Origin: Aequorivita viscosa | GTDB taxonomy: Bacteria; Bacteroidota; Bacteroidia; Flavobacteriales; Flavobacteriaceae | Direction: 5' to 3' | NCBI RefSeq assembly: GCF_900106795.1 | Contig: NZ_FNNS01000014.1 | Span: 1 to 64,000, forward strand | DNA: 64,000 nucleotides | Shown here: positions 2,446-62,743 of the stretch, piece by piece | Position numbering within the stretch: the stretch's first letter is position 1 | Layout of the letters: the number at the start of each line of letters is the position of its first letter | Translations under genes and position numbers: made by a program | The notes under the pieces: generated by a model | Seen by the model: the letters and a program-made list of their open reading frames with translations, nothing else | Database searches by the model: none | Told to the model about the DNA's origin: nothing

Positions 2446-4542
2446 TTAACTAATCGTTGCTCCGTTTAGTACGCCACTTGTATCAGGATTCATAAAAACC
2501 AATTTCCCGTCGGCGTCTTCGGTCATTAAAATCATTCCTTGGCTTTCAACACCGCGAAGGGCACGTGGCGCAAGGTTTACCAAAACAGTCACTTTTTTAC
2601 CAATGATGTCTTCGGCATTAAAACTTTGAGCAATTCCAGAAACAATAGTGCGCACGTCAATTCCTGTATCAACTTTTAGTATCAAAAGTTTATCTGCTTT
2701 TGGCATTTTTTCAGCTTCGATGATTGTTCCCACTCGCATATCGAGTTTCATAAAATCATCAAATTGAATTGTTTCTTTCTGTGGCGTCAATGCTACTGTT
2801 TCAGAAGTATTCTCCTCTTTATCTTTTGTATTATCCATTTTCGTCTGTTTCAATTTATTTAGCTGCGCTTCCACTTGGTCGTCTTCTATTTTGCTGAAAA
2901 GAAGTTCTGCCTTTCCAATTTTGTGACCGGGTTTTATGAGTTCAGATTTTGTAGAAACGTCGTTCCATTTAACGGGTCCTTGGACTGCGCTCAGGGTGAC
3001 ATTGAGCATGTTTTTCAACTTTTCTGAAGTAAACGGTAAAAACGGTTCGCTTAAAACCGCCAATGCAGAAGCAATTTGCAAGGCAACATACATTACTGTT
3101 TTGGTGCGTTCTGCATCTGTTTTAATGGTTTTCCACGGCTCTTCGTCGGCCAAATATTTATTTCCTAATCGAGCTAAATTCATCATTTCCGCTTGTGCTT
3201 CGCGAAAACGGTAACGCTCCAACGAACTTGCAATTACGGCGGGATATGCTTTTAACTCATTTAATGTTTGCTCATCAATTTCAGAAAAAGTTGCTGGTTC
3301 TGGGACCCTTCCTTCGTAATATTTATCGGTTAGAACCATCACTCGGTTAATGAAATTCCCAAAAATTGCAACCAATTCACTATTGTTTCTAGCTTGAAAA
3401 TCTGCCCAAGTAAAATCGTTATCCTTGGTTTCAGGTGCGTTTGCGGTTAAAGTGTATCGCAACACATCTTGCTGGTTCGGGAAATCTTCTAAATATTCGT
3501 GAAGCCATACCGCCCAGTTTTTACTAGTCGATATTTTATTGCCTTCAAGATTTAGAAATTCATTTGCGGGAACGTTTTCCGGTAGAATATAACTGCCTTC
3601 CGCTTTCAGCATTGCAGGAAAAATGATGCAATGAAAAACGATGTTGTCTTTTCCAATAAAGTGAAGCATTTTGGTTTTATCATCTTTCCAATAATCTTCC
3701 CAATTTTTGCCTTCGCGTTCCGCCCATTCCTTTGTTGAAGAAATATAGCCGATTGGCGCATCAAACCAAACATAAAGTACTTTTCCGTCGGCCCCTTCTA
3801 CTGGCACAGGAATTCCCCAATCCAAATCGCGGGTAACGGCACGCGGCCGCAAACCGTCGTCTATCCAACTTTTACACTGCCCGTAAACATTGGTCTTCCA
3901 ATCTTTTTTATGATCTACAAGAATCCACTGTTTTAAAAAATCTTCATATTCATTCAATGGCAAAAACCAGTGTTTTGTTTCTTTTAAAACTGGCACATTC
4001 CCAGAAATAGCACTTTTCGGATTGATTAAATCGGTAGCGTTTAAGCTGGAGCCACATTTTTCGCATTGGTCGCCATAAGCTTCTTCATTGCCGCATTTTG
4101 GGCAAGTTCCTGTAATGTATCTATCGGCAAGAAACTGATTGGCTTCTTCGTCGTATAATTGCTCGGTAACTTCTTCAGTAAATTTGCCTTCGTCGTAGAG
4201 TTTCTTGAAAAATTCGGATGCTGTTTTATGATGAATTTCAGCAGAAGTGCGCGAATAGTTATCAAAGGAAATCCCGAAATCTTCAAAAGATTTTTTGATA
4301 ATTCCGTGGTATTTATCAACTACTTGTTGCGGCGTAATGCCTTCTTTTTTCGCTTTTATGGTAATGGGTACACCGTGTTCGTCACTTCCGCAAATAAAAG
4401 CAACATCTTTATTTTGAAGTCTTTGGAAGCGTGCGTAGATATCGGCTGGCACGTAAACGCCTGCTAAGTGGCCAATATGAACGGGGCCGTTTGTATATGG
4501 TAAGGCTGCGGTAATTGTATACCTATTTGGGTTTTGTTCCAT
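2446..4542 (-). CDS. metG: Methionyl-tRNA synthetase with C-terminal tRNA-binding domain
   Basis: This cytoplasmic class I synthetase charges tRNA-Met with methionine. Visible are the HIGH motif (PVHIGHLAG, about residue 20), a double zinc knuckle at about 147-165 (CPKCG and CEKCG), the KMSKS equivalent KISTS near 337, the anticodon-binding helical domain, and a C-terminal Trbp111/EMAP-type OB fold from about 594 ([20 protein letters not shown]). At 698 residues it matches the long, dimeric form of the enzyme. The start is the only good ATG and is followed by [15 protein letters not shown]. On the minus strand a TACTTTTG box (4567-4560) lies just upstream and fits a Bacteroidota -7 element; a matching -33 box is not obvious. 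Confidence 0.98.
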
Positions 4543-47935: not shown

Positions 47936-48964
47936 ATGGTACAACCAAAAGTAGTGAAACAAGTAGTAGGTATTGATATAGGAATGGAAAGTTTCTTTGC
48001 CTGTTATCAAGTGAAGGATCAACATGAGCATATTGCCATCAAAGGGACCAAGTCATTTAAAAACAGCCCCAAGGGCATGGAAGAGTTCCTTTCGTGGTGT
48101 GAAAAACGTGAAAAGGACGTGGCTCCACAGCCTATTTATGTGATGGAGGCCACGGGTGTATATTATGAGAACCTGGCCTACTTTCTCTATGAGAACGACC
48201 AGAAAGTAAGTGTACAGTTGGCGCAAAAGCTAGCTTACTTTGCCAAGAGCAACAATCTGAAAACAAAGACGGACAAGGTCGACTCAAAAATGATTGCTGC
48301 TTTTGGGATGGAAAAGACACTGGGTGCATCAGACTTATGGACGCCTCCAAGCAAGGAGTTCAGGGTCATAAGAGACCTATCAAGAGAGCACACCAGTCTC
48401 AAGAAAGAGATCACGGCCGCCAAGTCCCAGCTTCACGCAATGGATCACGCACATAAGACCTATAAAAAAGTAATAACACTTAAAAAACAGATGATCTCCT
48501 TTTATAAAAAACAGTTGGATATCATCGAGAAAGAACTGAAAAAGCAAATAAAAGCAGATGATCAGCTCTATAAGAAGATCCAAAACATTGAAACGGTAAA
48601 GGGACTGGGGTTCATCACGATAATTAAAGTGATATCCGAGGTAAACGGCTTTTTGCTCTTCACCAATATCCGCCAGTTGGTCAGCTACGCGGGGCTGGAC
48701 GTAGTGGACAAGGAATCCGGGAAGTACAAAGGGAAGGCCAGGATATCAAAAAAAGGTAATGCACGCATCAGATCTGCTCTATATATGCCAGCCGTGGCTG
48801 CCGCCACCCATAACATTAATTTGAGAGATTTCTATGAACGCGTAAATGACAACCGTACGGTAAAAAAACATGGAGTCGTAGCGGTAATGCGCAAATTGTT
48901 GATCTTGATATATACATTGTGGAAAAAAAATGAACCATATATTGTGGATTATCAGTTAAGATAA
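47936..48964 (+). CDS. IS110-family transposase
   Basis: The 342-residue enzyme has the N-terminal RuvC-like DEDD domain (GIDIGMESFFACY, YVMEATGVYYENLAYFL, KTDKVDSKMIAAF) and the C-terminal transposase_20 domain with its helix-hairpin-helix and catalytic Ser region (IETVKGLGFITIIKVISE, LVSYAGLDVVDKESGK). It ends in KKHGVVAVMRKLLILIYTLWK. IS110 recombinases use a structured RNA made from the element's noncoding end to choose donor and target sites. The frame is intact, so the element may be active. Confidence 0.93.
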   Translation: MVQPKVVKQVVGIDIGMESFFACYQVKDQHEHIAIKGTKSFKNSPKGMEEFLSWCEKREKDVAPQPIYVMEATGVYYENLAYFLYENDQKVSVQLAQKLAYFAKSNNLKTKTDKVDSKMIAAFGMEKTLGASDLWTPPSKEFRVIRDLSREHTSLKKEITAAKSQLHAMDHAHKTYKKVITLKKQMISFYKKQLDIIEKELKKQIKADDQLYKKIQNIETVKGLGFITIIKVISEVNGFLLFTNIRQLVSYAGLDVVDKESGKYKGKARISKKGNARIRSALYMPAVAAATHNINLRDFYERVNDNRTVKKHGVVAVMRKLLILIYTLWKKNEPYIVDYQLR

Positions 48965-51497: not shown

Positions 51498-52571
51498 ATG
51501 GCTATGATAAAAATTGCAACATACATTTTTGCAATCCTTCTGCTCTTTGGATGTAAAAACGACAAAGCCTCTACTTCTGAAATCACTAATACTTCTGAAA
51601 AGTCCCTTAAAAGTGAAGAAAACTTCGGAATTGTAATTCACGGTGGTGCAGGGACTATTCTAAAAGAAAATATGAGTGACTCACTTGAAGCTGCTTATAA
51701 GGCAAAGCTAAAAGAAGCCATTTCCGTCGGTCACGAAATCTTAAAAAATGGTGGAACTTCTTTGGAAGCCGTTACACATACAATTAATGTATTGGAAGAT
51801 TCTCCACTTTTTAACGCAGGAAAAGGAGCTGTTTTTACACACGAAGAAAGAAATGAGCTCGATGCTTCCATTATGGATGGAGCAACGCTGAATGCAGGTG
51901 CAGTTGCAGGTGTTAAGCGCATTAAAAACCCAATAGATTTAGCCAGGGACGTAATGCAAAAAAGTGAACACGTAATGCTTTATGGTGAAGGTGCGGAAGA
52001 ATTTGCAAGAAGACTAGGTTACAAAATGATGGATACTTCGTATTTCTATACTCGTGATAGATATGAGTCATTAAAGAGAGTTCTGAGGAAGGAGCAAAGT
52101 AAAAATGAAAAATCAATCTCTTTTGAAGATTCATTTATAAAAGACTCAAAGTTCGGAACAGTTGGTTGCGCCGCTCTCGATAAACACGGAAATCTCGCCG
52201 CTGGAACCTCAACTGGCGGAATGACAAATAAGCGATGGAATAGAATTGGTGATGCGCCAATTATTGGAGCGGGAACTTATGCAAACAACGCAACTGCCGC
52301 GGTTTCATCAACTGGTTGGGGTGAGTTTTTTATCCGTTCCGTGGTGGCTTATGACATTTCTGCTTTGATGGAATATAAAGGAATGACGCTACAAGATGCT
52401 GCAAGGGAAGTTATTCAGAAAAAAGTTCCAGCACTAGGTGGCGATGGCGGCATTGTGGCTATTGATAAGGACGGAAACGTGGCAATGGAATTTAATACTG
52501 CGGGAATGTATCGAGCTTCAATGAATTCGGAAGGAGAATTAGTGGTTGGGATTTATAAAGAGGATGAGTAG
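51498..52571 (+). CDS. Isoaspartyl peptidase/L-asparaginase (T2) lipoprotein
   Basis: The 357-residue Ntn-hydrolase is exported as a lipoprotein (lipobox LLLFGCKND). It starts with GIVIHGGAGTILKE. The autocleavage site and nucleophile Thr lie in SKFGTVGCAALDKHGN, followed by AAGTSTGGMTNKRWNRIGDAPIIG. The enzyme removes isoaspartyl dipeptides or hydrolyses Asn after splitting into alpha and beta subunits, here probably in the periplasm. It is divergent from the dioxygenase gene. ATG 51504 is a possible alternative start. Five bases beyond the stop the repeat array begins. Confidence 0.93.
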   Translation: MAMIKIATYIFAILLLFGCKNDKASTSEITNTSEKSLKSEENFGIVIHGGAGTILKENMSDSLEAAYKAKLKEAISVGHEILKNGGTSLEAVTHTINVLEDSPLFNAGKGAVFTHEERNELDASIMDGATLNAGAVAGVKRIKNPIDLARDVMQKSEHVMLYGEGAEEFARRLGYKMMDTSYFYTRDRYESLKRVLRKEQSKNEKSISFEDSFIKDSKFGTVGCAALDKHGNLAAGTSTGGMTNKRWNRIGDAPIIGAGTYANNATAAVSSTGWGEFFIRSVVAYDISALMEYKGMTLQDAAREVIQKKVPALGGDGGIVAIDKDGNVAMEFNTAGMYRASMNSEGELVVGIYKEDE

Positions 52572-52573
52572 AG

Positions 52574-53306
52574 TTGGGCTAAAGCCCACTCAGTTTGCAG
52601 GTTTTCTTGGCCCCCAGCTAAAGCAGGGAGTTATTCGATGGCAGACTTAATCAATCGCCGTTAGTTCTACGAATAATCTCGCGGCTTTAGCCCGGGGTCA
52701 CTGAAGCTCAGCCTTTCAATGGGCTTTAGCCTAAATCATTATTTTCTTCTAAATATTTAATTCACAATTTCTTCCAATTCACTTTATTGACTATCTATGT
52801 CCCCAGTTAATGCGGGGGTTATTCGATGACAGACTAAATCAATTGCCGTTAGCTCTACCAATAACCCCGTGGCTTTAGCTCGAGGTGACCAAAGTACAAC
52901 TCTTCAATAGGGCTTTAGCCTAAATCATTATTTTCTTCTAAATATTTAATTCACAGTTGCTTCTAAGTCACTTTATAGGCCTTCTATGTCCCCAGTTAAT
53001 ACGCGGGTTATTCGATGATAGACTTAATCAATCGCCATTAGTTCTACGAATAATCTCGTGGCTTTAGCCCGGGGTCACTAAAGTTCAACCCTTCAATAGG
53101 GCTTTAGCCTAAATCATTAGTTTCTTCTAAATATTTAATTCACGATTGCTTCCAATTCACTTTATTGACTATCTATGTCCCCAGTTAATGCGGGGGTTAT
53201 TCTCTGTTAGAAGTAATCAATCGTCGTAAGTTGTACAAATAACCCCGTGGCTTTAGCCCGGGGTGACTAAAGTCCAACGCTTCAATAGGGCTTTAGCCTA
53301 AATCAC
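52574..53306. repeat. Array of four 189-bp palindromic repeats next to the RAYT gene
   Basis: CCCCAG at 52612, 52801, 52990 and 53179 marks four units with an exact 189-bp period. Each unit contains a long hairpin: arms of the type CCCC, GCTAAAGC, GGTTATTCG pair with CGAATAACC, GCTTTAGC, CGGGG around a loop of about 33 nt. Neighbouring units are joined by GGGCTTTAGCC and an AT-rich spacer. The left border is GGGCTAAAGCCC (52576-52587), 5 bp after the asparaginase stop, and the right border GGGCTTTAGCC (53288-53298). No open frame of note runs through it. Confidence 0.9.
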
Positions 53307-53389
53307 CCATCGCATATAACCTTATAAAGAGAAATTGGTTAAAAGTTGAATTTCACCTATATTTATTGGGAATCTAATCTCATTGTATT

Positions 53390-53836
53390 ATGTCATACGT
53401 CAAAATCTATATCCATCTAGTTTGGAATACAAAAAATCGACATCCATATCTTTCCGCCTTGGAGGTTCGGCAAAAAGTATGGCAACATATCCGTCGGAAT
53501 GCAAAGGAAAAAGAAATCTTCATCGATAGGATAAATGGACATAAAGAACATTGTCATTGCCTTTTCTCCCTTGGAAAAAATCAAACAATCCAACAAATCG
53601 CACAATTGCTCAAAGGCGAATCCTCCCATTGGATTAATAAAGAAAATATTCTGGGTAATGAAAGATTAAAATTCAAATGGCAAGAGGAGTATTTCGCGGT
53701 TTCCGTTTCGGAGTCGGTGGTTGGGAAAGTTCGAAAGTATATTGAAAATCAGGAAACTCATCATCAAAAGAAGACATATCAGCAGGAATATAATGAGTTT
53801 ATTAAAAGGTTTGGGTTTGAAAGATTAGAAGGTTAA
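53390..53836 (+). CDS. REP-associated tyrosine transposase (Y1/HUH, IS200-like TnpA)
   Basis: The 148-residue protein has the Y1 transposase fold: KIYIHLVWNTKNR, the HUH metal motif in HKEHCHCLFSL, KWQEEYFAVSVS, and the nucleophile Tyr in VGKVRKYIENQE. The domain is complete with no accessory TnpB. Such RAYT proteins nick and join single-stranded hairpin DNA and are thought to move REP elements. It lies between four repeats on the left and one on the right whose hairpin arms would suit as substrate. ATTG (53334-53337), N20 and TATATTTA (53358-53365) form a plausible promoter. No terminal IS ends are visible. Confidence 0.92.
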   Translation: MSYVKIYIHLVWNTKNRHPYLSALEVRQKVWQHIRRNAKEKEIFIDRINGHKEHCHCLFSLGKNQTIQQIAQLLKGESSHWINKENILGNERLKFKWQEEYFAVSVSESVVGKVRKYIENQETHHQKKTYQQEYNEFIKRFGFERLEG

Positions 53837-53839
53837 AGG

Positions 53840-53997
53840 TTGGGCTAAAGCCCATTTCATTCTACTGCATTCTAACCCTCAGCTGAAGCTGGGGGTTATT
53901 CGATGACAGAATTGTTAATCATAGGTAATTCTACGAATAACCCCTCGGCTTCAGCCAGGGGTATAAAAGTATACTCAGCCATCTAGGGCTTTAGCTT
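53840..53997. repeat. Fifth palindromic repeat unit, right of the RAYT gene
   Basis: The unit begins with TTGGGCTAAAGCCCA (53840-53854), just past the RAYT stop, as unit one does past the asparaginase stop. Its inner hairpin has GCTGAAGC (53882-53889) paired with GCTTCAGC (53948-53955), where unit one has GCTAAAGC and GCTTTAGC. GGGGTTATTCG/CGAATAACCCC pairs perfectly. It ends with GGGCTTTAGC (53986-53995). The rest of 53998-54086 holds nothing that I can support. Confidence 0.85.
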
Positions 53998-54086
53998 AAC
54001 CTTTATTTTAGTTTGCAATTTTCGGAACACAAATTGCAAGGCATCCATTTTTCCTTTACTTTTAAATCTTCCTAAACTCGCCCGTA

Positions 54087-57000
54087 ATGAAAATTTTTCA
54101 TCGCCTTTTAATTCTCTCTTTGGTTCTTCTGATTTTTTCCTGTAAAGACAAAGACAAACATTCCGAAACCGATAATCTCTTTAAATTCAAAGAGTATATT
54201 TCCTATAATACTTTCGGAAATAAATCTATAACCACAGATATTAAAGTAGGGTTGGCGCGACCGCTAGAGCAGTTTGAAATGTCTCAAGAACTTTCTGTAA
54301 ACGAATATTTACAAATCTCTCCCAAGGTTGACGGTAAACTTGTAATCGAAAACGGCAACACTTTAATTTTTGTGCCATCCAAAAACTTAAAACCCGATAC
54401 TGAATATTCGGTTACGGTAAAACTGAACAAGCTATACGACGACATTTCAAAGGAATACAAAACCTATACTTTCAGTTTTAGAACTATTAAGCCAAATTTT
54501 AAGGTAAACCTGGTTAAGCTTCAATCGTATAGCAAGGAATGGCAGTATTTAGAAGCGTCTGTAGAAGCCTCAGACTTTATTTCCATAGACAAAGCAAAAC
54601 AACTTGTTTCTGCTTCCCAAAACGGACAGAATTTAAAACTGAAATGGCCTGCGGAAATAGCTGATGGTCAATATTTCAGTTTTAAGATTGATAGTATTTC
54701 CCGTAAAATGGAGGATTCTGAGATTCTAATTAAGTGGGACGGCAAAGCAATCGGTGCAGAAAATCGAGGAGAAAACACTTTTAAAATCCCAGGACAGAAT
54801 AATTTCACAATTTTGAATGTCAGTAGTACGTTGGCGCCTCAAGCTTTGCTAAGTATCAATTTTTCTGATCCGTTAATGGTAAATCAGGATTTTTCAGGAT
54901 TGGTCAATATTGAAAACTCACAAAATTTAAGATATGAAGTAGATGGAAATGTTTTAAATGTTTATCCACCAAATCGAGTTATAGGCAATGTAAAAGTTAC
55001 TGTTTTCAATGGAATAAAAAATACCGAAGGATATAAATTGAAAAAGGATTTTTCAGAATTAGTTTCTTTTGAGCAATTAAAACCCGCCATTCGGATGATT
55101 TCAAATGGGGTGATTCTACCAAATTCTTCTGCTACGCCCATTTATTTTGAAGCCGTTAATCTTTCCAAAGTGGATGTTCGTGTTATTAAGATTTATGAGA
55201 ATAACGTACTTCAATTTCTTCAAAGTTACAATCTGAACGACAACGACACTTATGATATCCGTCGTGTGGGTCGAAGGATCGCCAAAAAAACAATTGATTT
55301 AAAATCTGATGGCTTAGGAGATAATGGAAGCTGGAAGGCTTATGCCATTAATCTTTCCGAATATTTTAAATCCGATCCAGGCGCTATTTATCAATTAGAG
55401 CTCAGCTTCAAAAAGGATTATACTACTTATGATTGCGATGAACCTATTTCCGAAGAAAAAAACATTGATGGAAGCGAAGATGAATACTACGATGAAGATC
55501 CTTATTACGCAGTAGATTCTTCCGAAGATGAAGAAATCCGTGAACAACGTTATTGGGACAACGAAATTTATCGCTGGAGAAACTACACTTATAATTGGGA
55601 ACAGCAAGACAATCCCTGTCATCCTGCCTATTATAATGACGAACGAGTTGTAACCGCTAATATTCTAGGTTCAGATTTGGGATTGATCGTTAAGAAAGGA
55701 AACAACCGTGCCTACCAATTTTTTGCTACAAATCTAATCTCCGCAAAACCTGAAAGCGGTGTAAAAATCAAACTTTTCAATTATCAAAAGCAACTTATTG
55801 AAACCGTAACCACAAACAGCGATGGAAGTGTACTTTATGATAGTAGTAAAAACGTCGCCTTCGCCGTAGCCCAAAAAGGAAATAATTTCGCTTATGTGAA
55901 ATTGGAAGACGGCAACGCTTTGTCAATGAGCAATTTTGATGTTTCTGGGAAAGAACTTCAAAGAGGGTTAAAGGGTTTCACTTATACCGAACGTGGAGTT
56001 TATCGTCCTGGCGACAGCATCCACCTTACATTTGTCTTGAACGACAATGCCAATCCACTTCCAAAAAATCATCCCGTAACACTCTCAGTAACGGATGCAC
56101 GAGGAAAACTTGTTCAACGTACGGTTTTAAATAATACAACCAAAAGTTCCTCTCCTTCTTCAAGGGGAGGTGCCGAAGGCGGAGGGGTTTCGGACAACTT
56201 CTACTATTTCCCAATAAAAACCGACGAATCGGCCCCCACGGGAAATTGGAACGCAACCATAACTGTTGGTGGTGCCCAATTTAGCCATACCTTAAAAGTG
56301 GCTACAATAAAACCCAACCGATTAAAAATCAAACTCGATTTTGAGGATGAAATCCTCGATGCTACCAAGCCAGTTAAGGGAACGGCAAGTGCATTGTGGC
56401 TTCACGGTTCGCCAGCGAGAGATCTTAATATTGATATGACTGCTACACTTCGGGCCAGTAATTCTTCATTTCCGAAATATCCTAAATTCAATTTTACAGA
56501 TCCAATAAGAACATTTGATGAAGTGGAAATTCCTGTTTTGGACACCAAACTTTCTTCTGAAGGAAGTGTCGCTTTTAGTAAGAATCTGGAAGTAGGTAAG
56601 AACACACCGGGAATGCTAAAAGCCACTTTCTTGACGAAGGTATATGAGGGCGGCGGCGATTTTTCCATAGACGTTTTCACCAAGGAATTGGCGCCATTTT
56701 CCTATTTCGTAGGATTGAAATCGCCTGAAGCTCGTGAATACGGGTCGTACTATACAGATGAAAACACTTCTTTTGATGTTGTAACCGTTGATGCGCAAGG
56801 AAATCCAGCAGGCAATCGCGAACTGGAAGTAAAGATTTTTCAGATTGAATGGCGCTGGTGGTGGAATCGCGGCGCCGATAATCTATCGAGTTATGAAAAT
56901 TCCACTGTGCACCGTCCCGTTCAAGGTTTTACTGTAAAAACCGATGGCAGCGGAAAAGGAAAGTTCAACGTAAATATTCCCGATGAGGAAGGAGGCAGAT

Positions 57001-59702
57001 ATTTAATAAGGGTAATCGACAAACAATCCGGACACGCCACAGGAAGAGTTGCTTATTTCTATAAAAACTGGTGGCAACGTCCGAGCGATGGCGATGCTGA
57101 AAGTGCTAAAATGCTGGTGTTTTCATCAGATAAGGAAAAATATACAGTAGGCGAAAAAGCTTCCATTACGTTCCCTTCCGGAAGTGAAGGCAGAGCTTTG
57201 GTGAGTGTTGAAAACGGTACCGAAGTTTTGGAAACGCAGTGGATTGAAACCAAAAAAGGTGAAACTCAGGCTACCATTAAAATCAACAAGGAAATGGCAC
57301 CGAATATTTATGTGAACATTTCCTTACTCCAACCCCACAGCCAAACCAAAAATGATTTGCCGATGCGGCTTTACGGGGTGATTCCCCTCTCGGTAGAAGA
57401 TCCTTCCACCATTCTTCATCCAAAGATTACGATGCCTGAAGTATTAAAACCCGAGGAAAATTTCACCGTAAAAGTTTCAGAGGAGAATAAAAAGCCAATG
57501 ACCTACACCATTGCAGTGGTGGATGATGGTTTGTTGGATTTAACCCGCTTTAAAACCCCCGATATTCACGAAGCTTTTTACAGTCGCGAGGCACTCGGGG
57601 TTAAGACCTTTGATATGTTTGATTATGTAATTGGCGCCTATTCCGGCAGTGTGGATAATATTTACGCAATCGGGGGTGGCGATGAAGCTTTGGGGGCTAA
57701 AAACCGAAAGGCTGACCGATTTAAACCTGTGGTGAAATATCTCGGTCCGTTTGAACTCGCGGCTGGGAAAACGACAACCCATCAAATAATGATGCCTAAT
57801 TATGTAGGTTCTGTACGAACAATGGTCATTGCGGGCGATAACTCAAAAGGCGCTTATGGCAATGCAGAAAAAACAACACCCGTTCGCAAACCATTGATGG
57901 TGTTGGCTTCGCTTCCGCGGAAATTATCTCCAGGCGAAACTGTTACCCTTCCTGTCACTGTTTTCGCAATGGAAAATAAAGTGAAAAATGTTTCCATCAC
58001 TGTAAAAACAGGAGATGCCCTAAAACCTATAAATGGAACTTCAAAAACTGTTTCGTTTAGTTCTCCAGGAGAACAGATTGTTAATTTCGAATTCCAAGTT
58101 TTACCAACCCAGGAATTTCAAACAATTGAGGTTTTGGCTTCCGGAAATGGTGAAAGTGCTTCTTATAAAGTTGAAATCGACGTAGAAAACCCCAACCCGA
58201 TTTCGCAGAAATCCACAAATTATACTCTAGAAGCCAACTCTTCCCAAACCATCGATTTTGAAACTTTCGGTGTGCCGGGCAGCAATTCCGCTACATTAGA
58301 GTTTTCCACTTTACCTCCAATGGATTTTAGCAGACGGATGGAATTCTTGATCCATTATCCCTATGGCTGTTTGGAGCAGACCACTTCGGCAGCTTTTCCA
58401 CAGTTGTATTTGGCAGATGTTTTTGATATCACCTTCGACAAAAAGCAGCAAATGGAGAAAAACGTAAAAGCGGCAATCGAAAGAATGGGAAGATTCCAAA
58501 CCACCAATGGCGGACTTGCTTATTGGCCAGGCGAACGAGAAGCGGATGAATGGACGACCAATTACGCGGGTCATTTTATGCTGGAGGCCCAACAAAAAGG
58601 ATATGCTTTGCCAATTAGTTTTATGAGCAATTGGTTGCTTTATCAGCAAAACACGGCGCGACAATGGCGAAATTCTTATGCGGTTTACAATTCTAGTTTG
58701 GTACAGGCTTATAGGCTTTACACTTTAGCCTTGGCCGGAAAACCAGAACTGGCCGCGATGAACCGACTTCGCGAGAGCAAGGAACTCAGCAATGATGCCA
58801 AATGGAGATTGGCAGCGGCTTACGCCTTGGCGGGCAAGAAAAACGTTGCGGAACAGATTGCACAAACGGCAAATATCAATTTCGTTCCACAGAAATATGA
58901 CTATTACACTTACGGCTCCCCTTTTAGAAATAAAGCAATGGCCTTGGAAACTATGGTGCTTTTAGGGGATTCCAAACAGCGAGATTTAGCATTATCACTA
59001 GCCAAGGATTTATCATCAAAACGTTGGTACAGCACCCAAGAAACTGCTTATGCATTGATGTCTCTAGCAAAAATGGTTGAAAAGAGCGGAGGGAAAGAAA
59101 TGGAGCTCACCTTCACCAAAAATGGAAAAACCAAAGAGGTCAAAACCGATCGTGCCATTGCACAACGCGATCTTTCCTTTGTAATGGGCGGAAATTCCGT
59201 TACCGTTACCAATAAAAAAGGGAATTTAGTTTACGTTACGCTTTCACAAAGAGGTAAACTTCCTTTAGGAGATGAACTGGCCGAACAGCGAAACCTTTCT
59301 ATTAAATCGCAGTATTTGGATGGGACTGGAAAAGCTTTGGACGTTTCCAATCTACGTCAGGGAACAGAAATAATTGCAAAAGTCAGCATCACCAATACTT
59401 CCAATAGCAGCATAAATAATGTAGCGTTAGCGAAAATTTTTCCAAGTGGTTGGGAAATTGTAAACACCAGTTTTACGGAATTCGGCGGCGGTGCGACAGG
59501 AAAAGCTAGGTATACCGATATCCGCGATGACAGGGTAAATTTCTTCTTCGATTTGGATATAAATGAAACGCGGACTTTTACGGTTAAATTGAATGCATCT
59601 TATCTAGGTACTTATTATTTGCCGGGAACCCAGGTTGAAGGGATGTATGATAATAATTATTATGCACGGAATAAGGGAATGTGGGTGAAGGTCCAGTTAT
59701 GA
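54087..59702 (+). CDS. Bacterial alpha-2-macroglobulin family lipoprotein
   Basis: This 1871-residue lipoprotein (lipobox LLIFSCKDK) has the bacterial A2M layout: N-terminal Ig-like domain (YSVTVKLNKLYDDISKEYKT), MG domains (FTYTERGVYRPGDSIHLTF), a central bait-like region, and a thioester domain with CLEQ near residue 1427 (HYPYGCLEQTTSAAFPQ). It is expected to trap attacking proteases in the periplasm through the thioester. An acidic Tyr/Asp/Glu-rich insert lies near 455-480. A repeat-like segment is read in frame near residue 690. pbpC follows after 190 bp, the classic pairing of trap with peptidoglycan repair. Confidence 0.95.
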   Translation: MKIFHRLLILSLVLLIFSCKDKDKHSETDNLFKFKEYISYNTFGNKSITTDIKVGLARPLEQFEMSQELSVNEYLQISPKVDGKLVIENGNTLIFVPSKNLKPDTEYSVTVKLNKLYDDISKEYKTYTFSFRTIKPNFKVNLVKLQSYSKEWQYLEASVEASDFISIDKAKQLVSASQNGQNLKLKWPAEIADGQYFSFKIDSISRKMEDSEILIKWDGKAIGAENRGENTFKIPGQNNFTILNVSSTLAPQALLSINFSDPLMVNQDFSGLVNIENSQNLRYEVDGNVLNVYPPNRVIGNVKVTVFNGIKNTEGYKLKKDFSELVSFEQLKPAIRMISNGVILPNSSATPIYFEAVNLSKVDVRVIKIYENNVLQFLQSYNLNDNDTYDIRRVGRRIAKKTIDLKSDGLGDNGSWKAYAINLSEYFKSDPGAIYQLELSFKKDYTTYDCDEPISEEKNIDGSEDEYYDEDPYYAVDSSEDEEIREQRYWDNEIYRWRNYTYNWEQQDNPCHPAYYNDERVVTANILGSDLGLIVKKGNNRAYQFFATNLISAKPESGVKIKLFNYQKQLIETVTTNSDGSVLYDSSKNVAFAVAQKGNNFAYVKLEDGNALSMSNFDVSGKELQRGLKGFTYTERGVYRPGDSIHLTFVLNDNANPLPKNHPVTLSVTDARGKLVQRTVLNNTTKSSSPSSRGGAEGGGVSDNFYYFPIKTDESAPTGNWNATITVGGAQFSHTLKVATIKPNRLKIKLDFEDEILDATKPVKGTASALWLHGSPARDLNIDMTATLRASNSSFPKYPKFNFTDPIRTFDEVEIPVLDTKLSSEGSVAFSKNLEVGKNTPGMLKATFLTKVYEGGGDFSIDVFTKELAPFSYFVGLKSPEAREYGSYYTDENTSFDVVTVDAQGNPAGNRELEVKIFQIEWRWWWNRGADNLSSYENSTVHRPVQGFTVKTDGSGKGKFNVNIPDEEGGRYLIRVIDKQSGHATGRVAYFYKNWWQRPSDGDAESAKMLVFSSDKEKYTVGEKASITFPSGSEGRALVSVENGTEVLETQWIETKKGETQATIKINKEMAPNIYVNISLLQPHSQTKNDLPMRLYGVIPLSVEDPSTILHPKITMPEVLKPEENFTVKVSEENKKPMTYTIAVVDDGLLDLTRFKTPDIHEAFYSREALGVKTFDMFDYVIGAYSGSVDNIYAIGGGDEALGAKNRKADRFKPVVKYLGPFELAAGKTTTHQIMMPNYVGSVRTMVIAGDNSKGAYGNAEKTTPVRKPLMVLASLPRKLSPGETVTLPVTVFAMENKVKNVSITVKTGDALKPINGTSKTVSFSSPGEQIVNFEFQVLPTQEFQTIEVLASGNGESASYKVEIDVENPNPISQKSTNYTLEANSSQTIDFETFGVPGSNSATLEFSTLPPMDFSRRMEFLIHYPYGCLEQTTSAAFPQLYLADVFDITFDKKQQMEKNVKAAIERMGRFQTTNGGLAYWPGEREADEWTTNYAGHFMLEAQQKGYALPISFMSNWLLYQQNTARQWRNSYAVYNSSLVQAYRLYTLALAGKPELAAMNRLRESKELSNDAKWRLAAAYALAGKKNVAEQIAQTANINFVPQKYDYYTYGSPFRNKAMALETMVLLGDSKQRDLALSLAKDLSSKRWYSTQETAYALMSLAKMVEKSGGKEMELTFTKNGKTKEVKTDRAIAQRDLSFVMGGNSVTVTNKKGNLVYVTLSQRGKLPLGDELAEQRNLSIKSQYLDGTGKALDVSNLRQGTEIIAKVSITNTSNSSINNVALAKIFPSGWEIVNTSFTEFGGGATGKARYTDIRDDRVNFFFDLDINETRTFTVKLNASYLGTYYLPGTQVEGMYDNNYYARNKGMWVKVQL
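56148..56190. repeat. Intergenic-type repeat inside the macroglobulin gene
   Basis: The segment contains CCTCTCCTT and AAGGGGAGG (a hairpin with a G-T wobble), then GTGCCGAAGGCGGAGGGG. It is read as SSPSSRGGAEGGGV between a normal MG strand (VLNNTTK) and NFYYFPIKTDESAPTG. Composition and wording differ from the gene and resemble the intergenic repeat at 50868-50902. Confidence 0.6.
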
Positions 59703-59795
59703 GTATTTCAAGTTATGAGTTTGAGCAATTAAGGGCAGAAAAAAGGATTTTAAAATTTGCAAGGTTTTCCAAATGGGAAATCTTTGAACGAAATT

Positions 59796-59838
59796 CCTGC
59801 AAGGTGTTCCCCGCTTTTTCTGCGGGGCTCCTTGTAGG
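59796..59838. repeat. Long hairpin between the macroglobulin gene and pbpC
   Basis: CCTGCAAGG pairs with CCTTGTAGG, and CCCCGC with GCGGGG, around a T-rich loop. It lies in the 190-bp spacer. A 58-codon frame (59699-59872) overlapping the macroglobulin stop as ATGA runs through the hairpin; I do not treat it as a gene. The structure could weaken read-through into pbpC or be a dispersed repeat. Confidence 0.55.
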
Positions 59839-59893
59839 TCTTATTCCAATATTTATTCGTGCAAGTTCGTGACATTAGTGGTTACTCCAGAAA

Positions 59894-62251
59894 ATGAAAA
59901 AGATTATTCCCTTCCTCAAAACCCACAAAATAAAACTCGGCATTGCGTTGATTGTATTTTTATTTTGGCTTTTCTGTCTCCCTTCGCCATTATTCAATGT
60001 TCCCACCGCAACCGTTGCAGAAAGCAGCAACGGACAAATGCTGGGTGCACGGATTGCGGATGATGGGCAATGGCGGTTTCCGCAAATGGATTCGGTGCCC
60101 GAACGCTTTGAAAAATGTGTGCTCTACTTTGAGGACGAGCATTTTTATTGGCATCCTGGGTTTAATCCAGTTTCAATTTCAAAAGCGCTTTGGAATAATC
60201 TCACCACAGATTCCCGCCGTGGAGGAAGTACAATTACCCAACAAGTTATTCGCCTTTCCCGACAAAATAAAGGTCGAACGTATTTTGAAAAACTAATCGA
60301 AATCTTTCAAGCTACCCGTTTGGAGGCGGGCTATAGCAAAAAGTCAATTTTGAATTTATATTCGTCCTACGCACCTTTTGGTGGAAATGTGGTAGGGTTG
60401 GAAACTGCCTCTTGGCGGTATTTTGGAATTCCCACCAGTGAATTGAGCTGGGGGCAATCTGCAGCGCTAGCTGTCCTTCCCAATGCGCCTTCTTTGATAT
60501 TTCCAGGAAAAAACGAAACTATTCTAAAACAAAAAAGAGATGCGCTTTTATTGAAACTTTTTCAGAAGAATGTCATTGATGAAACTACTTTCGAACTCGC
60601 TTTGGAAGAAAATCTACCGGGAAAACCGCATGGGTTACCTGAATTCGCCCCTCATTTAACCGAAAAAATTCGAAAGGAACACCACGGCCAACGGATTAAG
60701 ACAACGATTGATTTTTCACTTCAAAATAAAGTGAATTATATTGTAAAAGAGCATCATTACATATTGGCTCAAAATCAGATACACAATCTCGCAGTTTTGG
60801 TGATGGACGTGAATACACGAGTGATTCTGGCTTATGTAGGCAATTCTCCAACTACCGCCGACCATCATAATTTTGTGGATATCATTGAAAAACCCAGGAA
60901 TACCGGGAGTATTTTAAAACCTTTCCTCTTTGCGTCGATGCTTGATGCGGGAGAAATCCTTCCAAATGTTTTAGTTGTGGATATTCCAACTTCGGTGAAT
61001 GGATATTCCCCAGAAAACTTCGACAAGAAATATAATGGCGCCGTACCCGCAAGTGTGGCATTGTCACGGTCATTAAATATTCCAGCCGTTAGGATGCTTC
61101 GCGAATTTGGATTTCAACGATTTTACAATATTCTGAAAAAGACCAATCAAAAAGCGATTGACAAACCTGCCGATTATTACGGGCTCGCGATGATCCTGGG
61201 TGGCGGAGAAAGCAGTTTGTGGGATATCACCAAAGCGTATGCGGGAATGGCTTCAACCCTTAATTTTTTCAATACTTCTTCAAGTGAATACAGGGAAAAC
61301 GAATTTGTGGAACCTGTTTATGTGAAAAATCACGCTGACATTCCCTTTGGAAAAGTTCAGCAAAAACCTTCGGTTTGGAATGCGGGTGCTATTTATGAAA
61401 CCTTTGATGCAATGCAGAAAGTGAATCGGCCAAATGGAGAAGAAAACTGGGAATTCTTTACCAGTAGCCAACCCATTGCCTGGAAAACAGGAACAAGTCA
61501 CGGATTTAAAGATTCTTGGGCCGTTGGGGTTACTCCAAAATATGCAATTGGCGTATGGGCAGGAAATGCATCAGGGGAAGGGCGACCGGGATTGACAGGG
61601 ATTCAAGCAGCTTCCCCGATATTATTTGATATTTTGAATATTTTACCTAAAAGTGGTTGGTTCGGAATTCCTTATGATGAACTGGCTGAAGTTGAAATCT
61701 GCGCTAAAAGTGGCCATTTGGCTGGATTATTTTGTGAGGAAACAAAAAAAGAATGGATTCCTATAAATGGAACTCGGACAGACGCCTGCCCGTATCATCA
61801 AACGATTTTCTTGAATGCTTCGGAAAATTATCGCGTCAATTCTTCCTGTTATCCGCTTTCAGAAATGGTTCAAAAGAATTGGTTTGTCTTACCTCCTGTC
61901 ATAGAATATTATTACGCCGCGCTTCATCCAGAATATAAATCCCTTCCTTCTTTTGCTCCAGATTGTTTGCGCGAAGGAGAAAACCTGATGGCTTTTATGT
62001 ATCCGAAGCGGAATGAAGCGGTACTTCTTCCGAAGAATTTCGATGAAAATATAAACGATGTCATTTTTAAAATCGCTCATCGTTTTCCAGAAACTACAGT
62101 TTATTGGTATTTGGATTCGCAATATATCGGCAGCACCCAAACCTTTCACGAGTTGGCGGTTTCTCCAAAACCTGGAAGCTATATTTTAACGGTAGTGGAT
62201 AGTGATGGGAATACGTTAAAAGAAAGAATTGAGATTGGACAAATTGAATAA
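59894..62251 (+). CDS. pbpC: Penicillin-binding protein 1C
   Basis: The 785-residue bifunctional enzyme has one N-terminal membrane helix and a GT51 glycosyltransferase (EDEHFYWHPGFN, RRGGSTITQQVIRLS). The transpeptidase has SILK (catalytic Ser, NTGSILKPF), SRSLN and KTGTSHGFKDSW. A C-terminal BiPBP_C beta domain, specific to PBP1C, ends the protein. It builds or repairs peptidoglycan in the periplasm. The gene is paired with the macroglobulin, as in many Gram-negative bacteria. The ATG at 59894 precedes the basic MKKIIPFLKTHKIK and the membrane helix. Confidence 0.96.
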   Translation: MKKIIPFLKTHKIKLGIALIVFLFWLFCLPSPLFNVPTATVAESSNGQMLGARIADDGQWRFPQMDSVPERFEKCVLYFEDEHFYWHPGFNPVSISKALWNNLTTDSRRGGSTITQQVIRLSRQNKGRTYFEKLIEIFQATRLEAGYSKKSILNLYSSYAPFGGNVVGLETASWRYFGIPTSELSWGQSAALAVLPNAPSLIFPGKNETILKQKRDALLLKLFQKNVIDETTFELALEENLPGKPHGLPEFAPHLTEKIRKEHHGQRIKTTIDFSLQNKVNYIVKEHHYILAQNQIHNLAVLVMDVNTRVILAYVGNSPTTADHHNFVDIIEKPRNTGSILKPFLFASMLDAGEILPNVLVVDIPTSVNGYSPENFDKKYNGAVPASVALSRSLNIPAVRMLREFGFQRFYNILKKTNQKAIDKPADYYGLAMILGGGESSLWDITKAYAGMASTLNFFNTSSSEYRENEFVEPVYVKNHADIPFGKVQQKPSVWNAGAIYETFDAMQKVNRPNGEENWEFFTSSQPIAWKTGTSHGFKDSWAVGVTPKYAIGVWAGNASGEGRPGLTGIQAASPILFDILNILPKSGWFGIPYDELAEVEICAKSGHLAGLFCEETKKEWIPINGTRTDACPYHQTIFLNASENYRVNSSCYPLSEMVQKNWFVLPPVIEYYYAALHPEYKSLPSFAPDCLREGENLMAFMYPKRNEAVLLPKNFDENINDVIFKIAHRFPETTVYWYLDSQYIGSTQTFHELAVSPKPGSYILTVVDSDGNTLKERIEIGQIE

Positions 62252-62256
62252 AAAGA

Positions 62257-62743
62257 CAAACGGCAATAGAACATAACTCCTTCACTCGGGTGCGCCCGAA
62301 ATCATGAACTTTATCTAACTTGACTTACGCCTAGTTAATTTGCGCATTAAAAAAAGATAGATTTTTAACAAAGTGTTTATATGGAAGGAATTTGGCTAAA
62401 GCCGGATCTGCATTCAGCATTTTACCCACGGGCTAAAGCACCGTGGTTATTCAAGATTGTATTTAAATAACCCAGTGCTTTAGCTCGGGGAAATTCAATG
62501 AAAATTCAAACGGCAATAGAGCGTAACTCCTTCACTCGGGTGCGCCCGAAATCATGAACTTTATCTAACTTGACTTACGCCTAGTTAATTTGCGCATTTA
62601 AAAAAGATAGATTTTTAACAAAGTGTTTATATGGAAGGAATTTGGCTAAAGCCGGATCTGCATTCAGCATTTTACCCACGGGCTAAAGCACCGTGGTTAT
62701 TCAAGGTTGTTCTTTAAATAACCCAGTGCTTTAGCTCGTGGAA
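62257..62743. repeat. Tandem duplication of about 250 bp after pbpC
   Basis: Copy one (62257-62492) and copy two (62507-62743) are offset by exactly 250 bp at their starts and are nearly identical. Each contains the hairpin TCGGG-TGCG-CCCGA, the arm GGAATTTGGCTAAAGCCG and a palindromic GGGCTAAAGCAC...GTGCTTTAGCTCG unit. Differences are a few substitutions and a 1-base indel, which suggests a recent duplication. Confidence 0.9.

Follow-up and report, generated by a model that had tools for sequence, protein, structure and literature searches.

The window, the 64,000-nucleotide stretch of Aequorivita viscosa DNA analysed here, holds a transposase gene embedded among tandem units built of paired hairpins. 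We read this locus, with a probability of roughly 0.78, as a REPtron- or REPIN-like module run by a Y1/HUH TnpA that is not a RAYT and is instead of the subclass 1.2 type. Comparison with related genes suggests a widespread and overlooked partnership of enzyme and repeat, resembling REP/RAYT and present in Bacteroidota and some other phyla.

Table 1. Features of the transposase locus and of a second repeat locus in the window.
Feature	Coordinates	Strand	Details
Unit 1, complete	52574..52735	+	Outer hairpin (GGGC-TAAA-GCCC), inner hairpin, loop, inverted inner and outer partners
Unit 2, without left outer hairpin	52801..52923	+	Conserved spacer, 189-bp period
Unit 3, without left outer hairpin	52990..53112	+	
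Unit 4, without left outer hairpin	53179..53301	+	91% identity to the unit upstream of the second tnpA on C40
tnpA, Y1/HUH transposase	53390..53836	+	Subclass 1.2 type, 148 aa, Y motif YIENQETHH
Unit 5, complete	53839..53999	+	Starts no more than 3 bp past the tnpA stop codon
250-bp tandem duplication	62241..62743	.	Each copy with a second-family unit; R1 matches at 62377 and 62627

The four units upstream of the gene are anchored by CCCCAG at 52612, 52801, 52990 and 53179, and TRF reports a single array there (52612-53305; period 189, 3.7 copies, 85% matches, score 1022). The exact 189-bp period of the original prediction holds at the CCCCAG anchor of the four units and breaks further in, where a 1-nt indel sets units 1 and 2 188 bp apart. 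Outer and inner arms are both present in units 1 and 5; the left outer arm is missing from units 2-4, where a conserved spacer makes up the 189-bp period. The outer hairpin of unit 1 occupies 52576-52587, and the inner hairpin of unit 5 reads CCCTCAGC-TGAA-GCTGGGGG, followed by GTTATTC. As had been predicted, the four units are followed by an intact Y1/HUH gene (open frame, PF01797 E 7e-27) and then by a fifth unit in the same orientation as units 1-4, which the R1 model, built from the five window units, scores at 155 bits on the + strand vs 57.9 on the - strand. Units 1-4 are only 81-91.5% identical to one another in pairwise comparison, so the array is not recent. For a two-unit higher-order duplication within it, there are four informative 2:2 sites only, and these divide 3 vs 1. 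A search of 52000-54200 at the Rfam gathering threshold returned no match to a known RNA family. At the second repeat locus, the unit is complete in the second copy of the duplication and cut short at its right end in the first. Elsewhere in the window, a 342-aa ORF at 47936-48964 encodes what we take to resemble an IS110-type transposase.

The original prediction called the enzyme a RAYT, a label that its sequence contradicts. In 14 aligned proteins, the window protein included, the HCH and Tyr117 columns are invariant (the middle residue of HCH varies), as are Y117, Q121, H124 and H125 of the Y motif. The signature of TnpA_Y1 subclass 1.2 is given as Y---Q--HH, or Y-x-x-N-Q-x-x-H-H (PMC6006769, in excerpt), and by its Y motif the window TnpA is assigned to this type. 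The same excerpt describes the subclass as having a median length of 148 aa, a low copy number and hosts mainly among Cyanobacteria and Bacteroidetes, with REP entered as 'no' in its table and typical IS200 end structures generally absent. Size and copy number agree here, the protein having 148 aa and the genome two intact copies plus fragments. The NCBIfam IS200/IS605 model NF033573 scores the window protein at 63.9 bits, above its cut-off of 55, while the RAYT model NF047646 reaches 29 bits, below its cut-off of 80; a profile search matched eight PDB sequences, whose titles name ISHp608 or other transposases. RAYTs are defined by NP(L/V)(R/K)xG after the catalytic tyrosine and by a GT(A/G)G head (PMC2817692, in excerpt). 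The former was not found at that position, where the window protein has YIENQETHHQKK, and the latter does not show at the hairpin foot when 137 strong hairpins are tallied column by column. On the motif, the foot and the NCBIfam cut-off together we reject RAYT membership for the protein.

Copies of the units are dispersed through the genome, as the original prediction expected. At E<=0.01 the R1 model finds 17 distinct places on 8 contigs (strands merged, the five source units counted, 150 of 510 candidates scored), and 8 of the 17 lie away from both tnpA loci. By our reading, the units fall into two sequence families with one common architecture. Contig C13 bears a second tandem array of four units, with starts 206, 206 and 195 bp apart, and a Y1 search of that contig gave no match. 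Contig C40 carries a second tnpA, 94% identical to the window gene; it is accompanied by a copy truncated at the 5' end and by a third fragment, next to a run of N, so whole modules are repeated there. On the same contig, tnpA 3' ends are captured between units beside the run of N (L041:1678-1819 and 3458-3514), as rayt 3' ends are in BIMEs (PMC2817692, in excerpt). Tandem tnpA genes also occur in another genome of the genus, G009, assembled as one contig, where L073:2526-4805 holds three copies, identical over 417 nt and 811 and 1007 bp apart; these are of subclass 1.2 and have TAAC-loop hairpins of their own.

Other Y1 genes of the A. viscosa genome are of different kinds. A Y1 relic near a unit on C56 was rejected as a member of subclass 1.2, its frame reading YIHNNP and subclass 1.2 queries giving no credible match. 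Two class-2-like genes on C32 (L004 and L006, with YIHTNP and YIDQNP) have repeated hairpins nearby and may constitute a true RAYT system in the same genome. On C53 a minus-strand gene (L042:1200-1620) with a YVKYQ motif is subclass 1.1-like and has no repeated flanking hairpins.

The site of the window array was compared in the 26 of 28 genus genomes that have a close orthologue of the upstream gene. In this genome the two genes that flank the site are 1515 bp apart, with array and tnpA in between; in G025 the interval is 267 bp long and contains one complete unit but no tnpA. By eye, the interval is free of units in G004 (58 bp), G003 (63 bp), G021 (79 bp), G005 (145 bp), G023 (190 bp), G008 (195 bp) and G016 (278 bp), and in G026 it measures 94 bp with the remnant TTTGGGCTAAAGC. 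Twelve genomes have about 500 bp there, starting with another ORF; in G009, G010, G027 and G013 the downstream gene was not found within the locus. An empty site, a lone unit and an array at one orthologous position show the unit to be a discrete entity whose presence varies. The difference between G025 and this genome may reflect an acquisition in the latter or, through recombination of flanking units, a deletion in the former, and no insertion junction or target duplication was resolved in the 26 genomes compared.

Hairpins of one design recur beside related genes. We located such loci through subclass 1.2 peptide patterns and took the best 80 of at least 577 (34-63% identity), which with the window and L041 from this genome make a set of 82. 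The 80 relatives come mostly from Bacteroidota, then from Ignavibacteriota, Chlorobiota, Calditrichota, Cloacimonadota, Neomarinimicrobiota and Acidobacteriota, with a few from Planctomycetota, Verrucomicrobiota and other phyla; many are MAGs, and single phylum labels may reflect binning errors. With such hairpins in several phyla, the system is not the specifically flavobacterial one first envisaged. Stems differ from locus to locus and the tetraloop TRAA is nearly constant: within 500 bp of the 82 genes (77.8 kb), TRAA closes 147 of 163 perfect tetraloop hairpins with a stem of at least 7, vs 8 of 54 strong tetraloop hairpins in a 3.4-fold larger distal control (261.9 kb, lying 1.5-3 kb from the genes, plus window positions 1-50000 and 56001-62000). 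A strong TRAA hairpin is present at 61 of the 82 loci; among the 21 that have none within 500 bp are the window and L041, owing to stems that are shorter or contain mismatches. Simple terminators are argued against by the loop bias, by the mirrored hairpins upstream and downstream of the gene and by the ordinary loops of the distal controls.

Counting flanks of 1 kb on either side, some of them short or with short controls, a repeated hairpin occurs at 58 of the 80 loci; distal controls give 5 of 80, and shuffling gives 6 of 800. For the 52 loci with complete flanks and controls the figures are 39 and 4. A family-level set of 60 loci, reduced to 42 by removing 9 without a readable frame and 9 repeats, and with 4 loci reassigned to subclass 1.2 by eye, gave a repeated hairpin at 27 of 28 subclass 1.2 loci, 2 of 2 class-2-like loci and 0 of 12 other Y1 loci (5 with a 1.1-type motif and 7 unclassified by rule). 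The published 'no REP' trait of the subclass thus does not extend to these loci, with repeated hairpins at 58/80 and 27/28. The densest in the family set are L295 (G068) and L206 (G095), subclass 1.2 genes with 16 and 11 nearby short-hairpin copies. Tandem repeats with a period of at least 60 lie within 1.5 kb of 12 of the 82 genes (259.5 kb) and in 4 of 82 distal stretches (208.9 kb); arrays therefore recur, yet as a minority.

The hairpins are organised into half-sites, in each of which two hairpins have loop starts 34-49 nt apart; the outer one is weak (about 5 bp), the inner one strong (about 8 bp), and both are closed by TRAA (TTYA on the opposite strand). Of the 82 loci, 44 supply a total of 75 pairs of same-strand neighbouring TRAA hairpins within the range of 20-70 nt; every pair is spaced by 34-49 nt, with maxima at 36-38 and 43-44 nt. 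A full unit without a gene consists of two inverted half-sites (>> <<), and the gene is placed between half-sites as << tnpA >>: upstream, the nearest hairpin is '<' at 50 of 54 loci, and downstream it is '>' at 55 of 59. A YWAY foot follows 77 of 137 strong hairpins vs 23 of 137 on the other flank; in the column frequencies of these hairpins the 3' foot has a weak, YWATT-like consensus and the 5' flank is merely T/A-rich. Pairing holds for 96.6% of the cells of an alignment of 25 rows, and 11 of its 13 pairs show changes on both sides, a covariation partly built in by the hairpin rule that picked the rows. At about 160 bp per unit, with double-hairpin half-sites, the repeats are bigger than classic REPs and composite, as the original prediction held. 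Inverted pairs of short palindromes that are dispersed and also stand in tandem are traits of REPINs and BIMEs; the high copy number of those systems (>100) is not reached, R1 giving 17 places from the 150 of 510 candidates scored.

Loop type follows the protein tree, and a more distant clade of subclass 1.2 has other loops. We built the tree from 124 proteins (the window, L041, 80 of at least 577 relatives, 17 from the genus and 25 from the family); it includes no other TnpA_Y1 classes and has few columns for its number of rows. Loop labels were set by rule, except that L041 was labelled TRAA by hand. The non-TRAA proteins form one supported clade of 46 rows, comprising 40 with another loop, 3 without a repeated hairpin and 3 labelled TRAA in which the main repeated hairpin is closed by some other loop. 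The other 78 rows comprise 73 TRAA, 4 with none and 1 with another loop. The TRAA label requires 7 changes on this tree, vs a mean of 38.4 after shuffling, and none of 500 shuffles was as low. Within the genus, GCCCTGAAAGGGC occurs in 6 of 28 genomes, namely the six that carry intact genes from a single tnpA lineage, and is absent from the 22 others; G022, whose broken relative L092 resembles that lineage, has no match. TCCCTAACGGGA occurs in 5 of 5 genomes of another tnpA lineage and in 3 of the 23 without it, which tells against strict linkage. Fisher tests give 2.7e-6 for GCCCTGAAAGGGC and 5.7e-4 for TCCCTAACGGGA, both overstated because the patterns were drawn from flanks already seen (those of 5 of 6 and 3 of 5 cognate genomes), so that the informative part is mainly absence elsewhere.

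At the level of whole genomes, repeats and enzyme belong together, in keeping with the original prediction. The pattern TKGGCTAAAGCCMA has 17 matches in this genome and at least one in 71 of 298 other family genomes, none with more than 4; the reversed pattern has 2 at most. The double-hairpin model R2, for which 17 candidates per genome were scored so that 17 matches means at least 17, has matches in 10 of 299 family genomes at E<=0.01. These include 4 of 4 genomes with a tnpA at least 47% identical to that of the window (at least 17, 3, at least 17 and at least 17 matches) vs 6 of 295 others (11, 4, 2, 2, 1 and 1). If G057 is counted, where R2 finds nothing at E<=0.01 although a tnpA of TRAA type (41% identity) is present, the first figure becomes 4 of 5. 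R2 matches are spread over 11 contigs in G240 and lie also far from the tnpA genes in G267 (one contig); in G230 all three adjoin tnpA. Five of the six genomes with R2 matches and no close tnpA have no tnpA match at E<=1e-15, and the sole matches in G034 are of a distant, 31-33% kind. Besides G034, these six are G153, G314, G002 and G298, all five with 1-4 R2 matches, and G251. Repeats as frequent without the enzyme as with it were not found; G251, with 11 matches and no recognised tnpA, is the clearest exception, possibly a relic of a lost enzyme, a gene that was not assembled or a partner acting in trans. R1 matches occur in 4 of 28 genus genomes. Besides the present genome, these are G004, with matches at three places and a TRAA-clade gene that is broken, and G023 and G025, each with a single place and no TRAA-clade gene found.

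Several other explanations could account for parts of this picture. That the locus is an ordinary IS200-type insertion sequence, with the hairpins as its ends and the extra units as decayed copies, strikes us as improbable. The protein is IS200/IS605-like, the gene does lie between mirrored hairpins and a 94% identical second copy exists on C40. Solitary units, however, take the form >> <<, whereas deletion of tnpA would leave << >>; units outnumber genes (17 R1 places vs 2 intact tnpA in the genome), the four-unit array of C13 sits on a contig without a Y1 match, and none of the 5 loci with a 1.1-type motif has repeated flanking hairpins. A REPtron of the genuine RAYT/REP kind (class 2), its tandem array resembling a BIME, has in our view a smaller chance still. 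It would share the logic of inverted short palindromes that flank the gene, disperse and stand in tandem, down to the tnpA 3' ends in arrays at L041. By our reading of sequences in the excerpt of PMC2817692, REPs of Haemophilus and Thioalkalivibrio have TTYA loops, and the RAYT model matches 13 of 14 aligned proteins at E<=0.001. Against it stand the absence of both the NP motif after the tyrosine and the GTAG head, the failure of the NCBIfam RAYT model (29 vs 80) where IS200/IS605 passes, and the ISHp608 and other transposase titles of the eight PDB matches.

Passive tandem repeats, generated by slippage or unequal recombination on hairpin DNA with the transposase a mere resident, we hold to be the least probable account. 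Arrays without tnpA exist on C13 and at 62.2-62.7 kb, direct repeats favour recombination, and a tandem repeat lies near the gene at just 12 of 82 loci. This would explain tandem copies, but not the conservation of TRAA, the mirrored placement or the clade-specific hairpins.

For the preferred reading, a REPtron-like module of a subclass 1.2-type TnpA, we propose as substrate the double-hairpin half-site, with its TRAA loops and the YWATT-like foot that adjoins the inner stem. TnpA, presumably dimeric like that of IS608, would bind the hairpins on single-stranded DNA, cut near the foot and then move or copy units in trans, a scheme drawn by analogy with IS608 and TnpA_REP. Tandem arrays could result from recombination or slippage between direct repeats, or be by-products of TnpA strand transfer. 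More tentatively, and with a little more doubt than belief, we suggest that the REP/RAYT lifestyle arose a second time, on the IS200 side: subclass 1.2 TnpAs in many phyla would mobilise double-hairpin units in trans, reading a fixed TRAA and foot and leaving the stem free, and one loop switch would have founded the second clade. For an orphan transposase subclass, this points to a likely substrate and to a simple rule of recognition that fits most of the sampled loci, with a constant loop, a free stem and two hairpins. If the proposal is true, domestication of IS200-type enzymes as repeat movers may have occurred more than once, and a cause would be at hand for a set of Bacteroidota intergenic palindromes.

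The system is of a known kind, to which BIMEs, REPINs and TIRtrons also belong. RAYT REPtrons (class 2 TnpA_REP) likewise have short palindromes, inverted, on both sides of a Y1/HUH gene, dispersed through the genome and also in tandem; their repeats coevolve with the enzyme and capture the 3' end of the gene, and some of their REPs are TTYA-looped (PMC2817692, PMC8266576, both in excerpt). The original prediction regarded a regular tandem array as foreign to REPs; BIMEs, as the excerpt of PMC8266576 states, are frequently tandem. TTYA loops in REPs of Haemophilus and Thioalkalivibrio (PMC2817692, in excerpt) likewise give the TRAA/TTYA loop itself a precedent. Unlike RAYT REPtrons, the module here has an enzyme without RAYT motifs, no GTAG head was seen, the half-site is a hairpin doublet with a YWATT-like foot in a unit of about 160 bp, and the copy number is low beside classic REPs, at about 17 places, not hundreds. 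IS200/IS605 TnpAs of subclass 1.1 (IS608, ISDra2) share the protein family, the catalytic residues and, presumably, hairpin recognition, but a repeated flanking hairpin was found at 0 of 5 loci with the 1.1-type motif. TIRtrons, or TIRYTs, also join a Y1 gene to longer, sometimes double-palindromic inverted repeats that can form families; unlike the present enzyme, TIRYTs retain RAYT motifs, and GGGGWSAS is common to some TIRs (PMC3733652, in excerpt). The nearest relation is TnpA_Y1 subclass 1.2 itself, with its Y---Q--HH motif, median of 148 aa, low copy number and Bacteroidetes among the main hosts. In contrast to the subclass as characterised in the excerpt of PMC6006769, with no REP and generally no IS200 ends, mirrored hairpins stand at 61 of 82 loci here, and our literature search yielded no report of REPs for subclass 1.2 among the matches listed. 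As far as the literature searched shows, the novelty lies in tying such repeats to subclass 1.2, in a TRAA loop that stays constant and in a half-site made of two hairpins.
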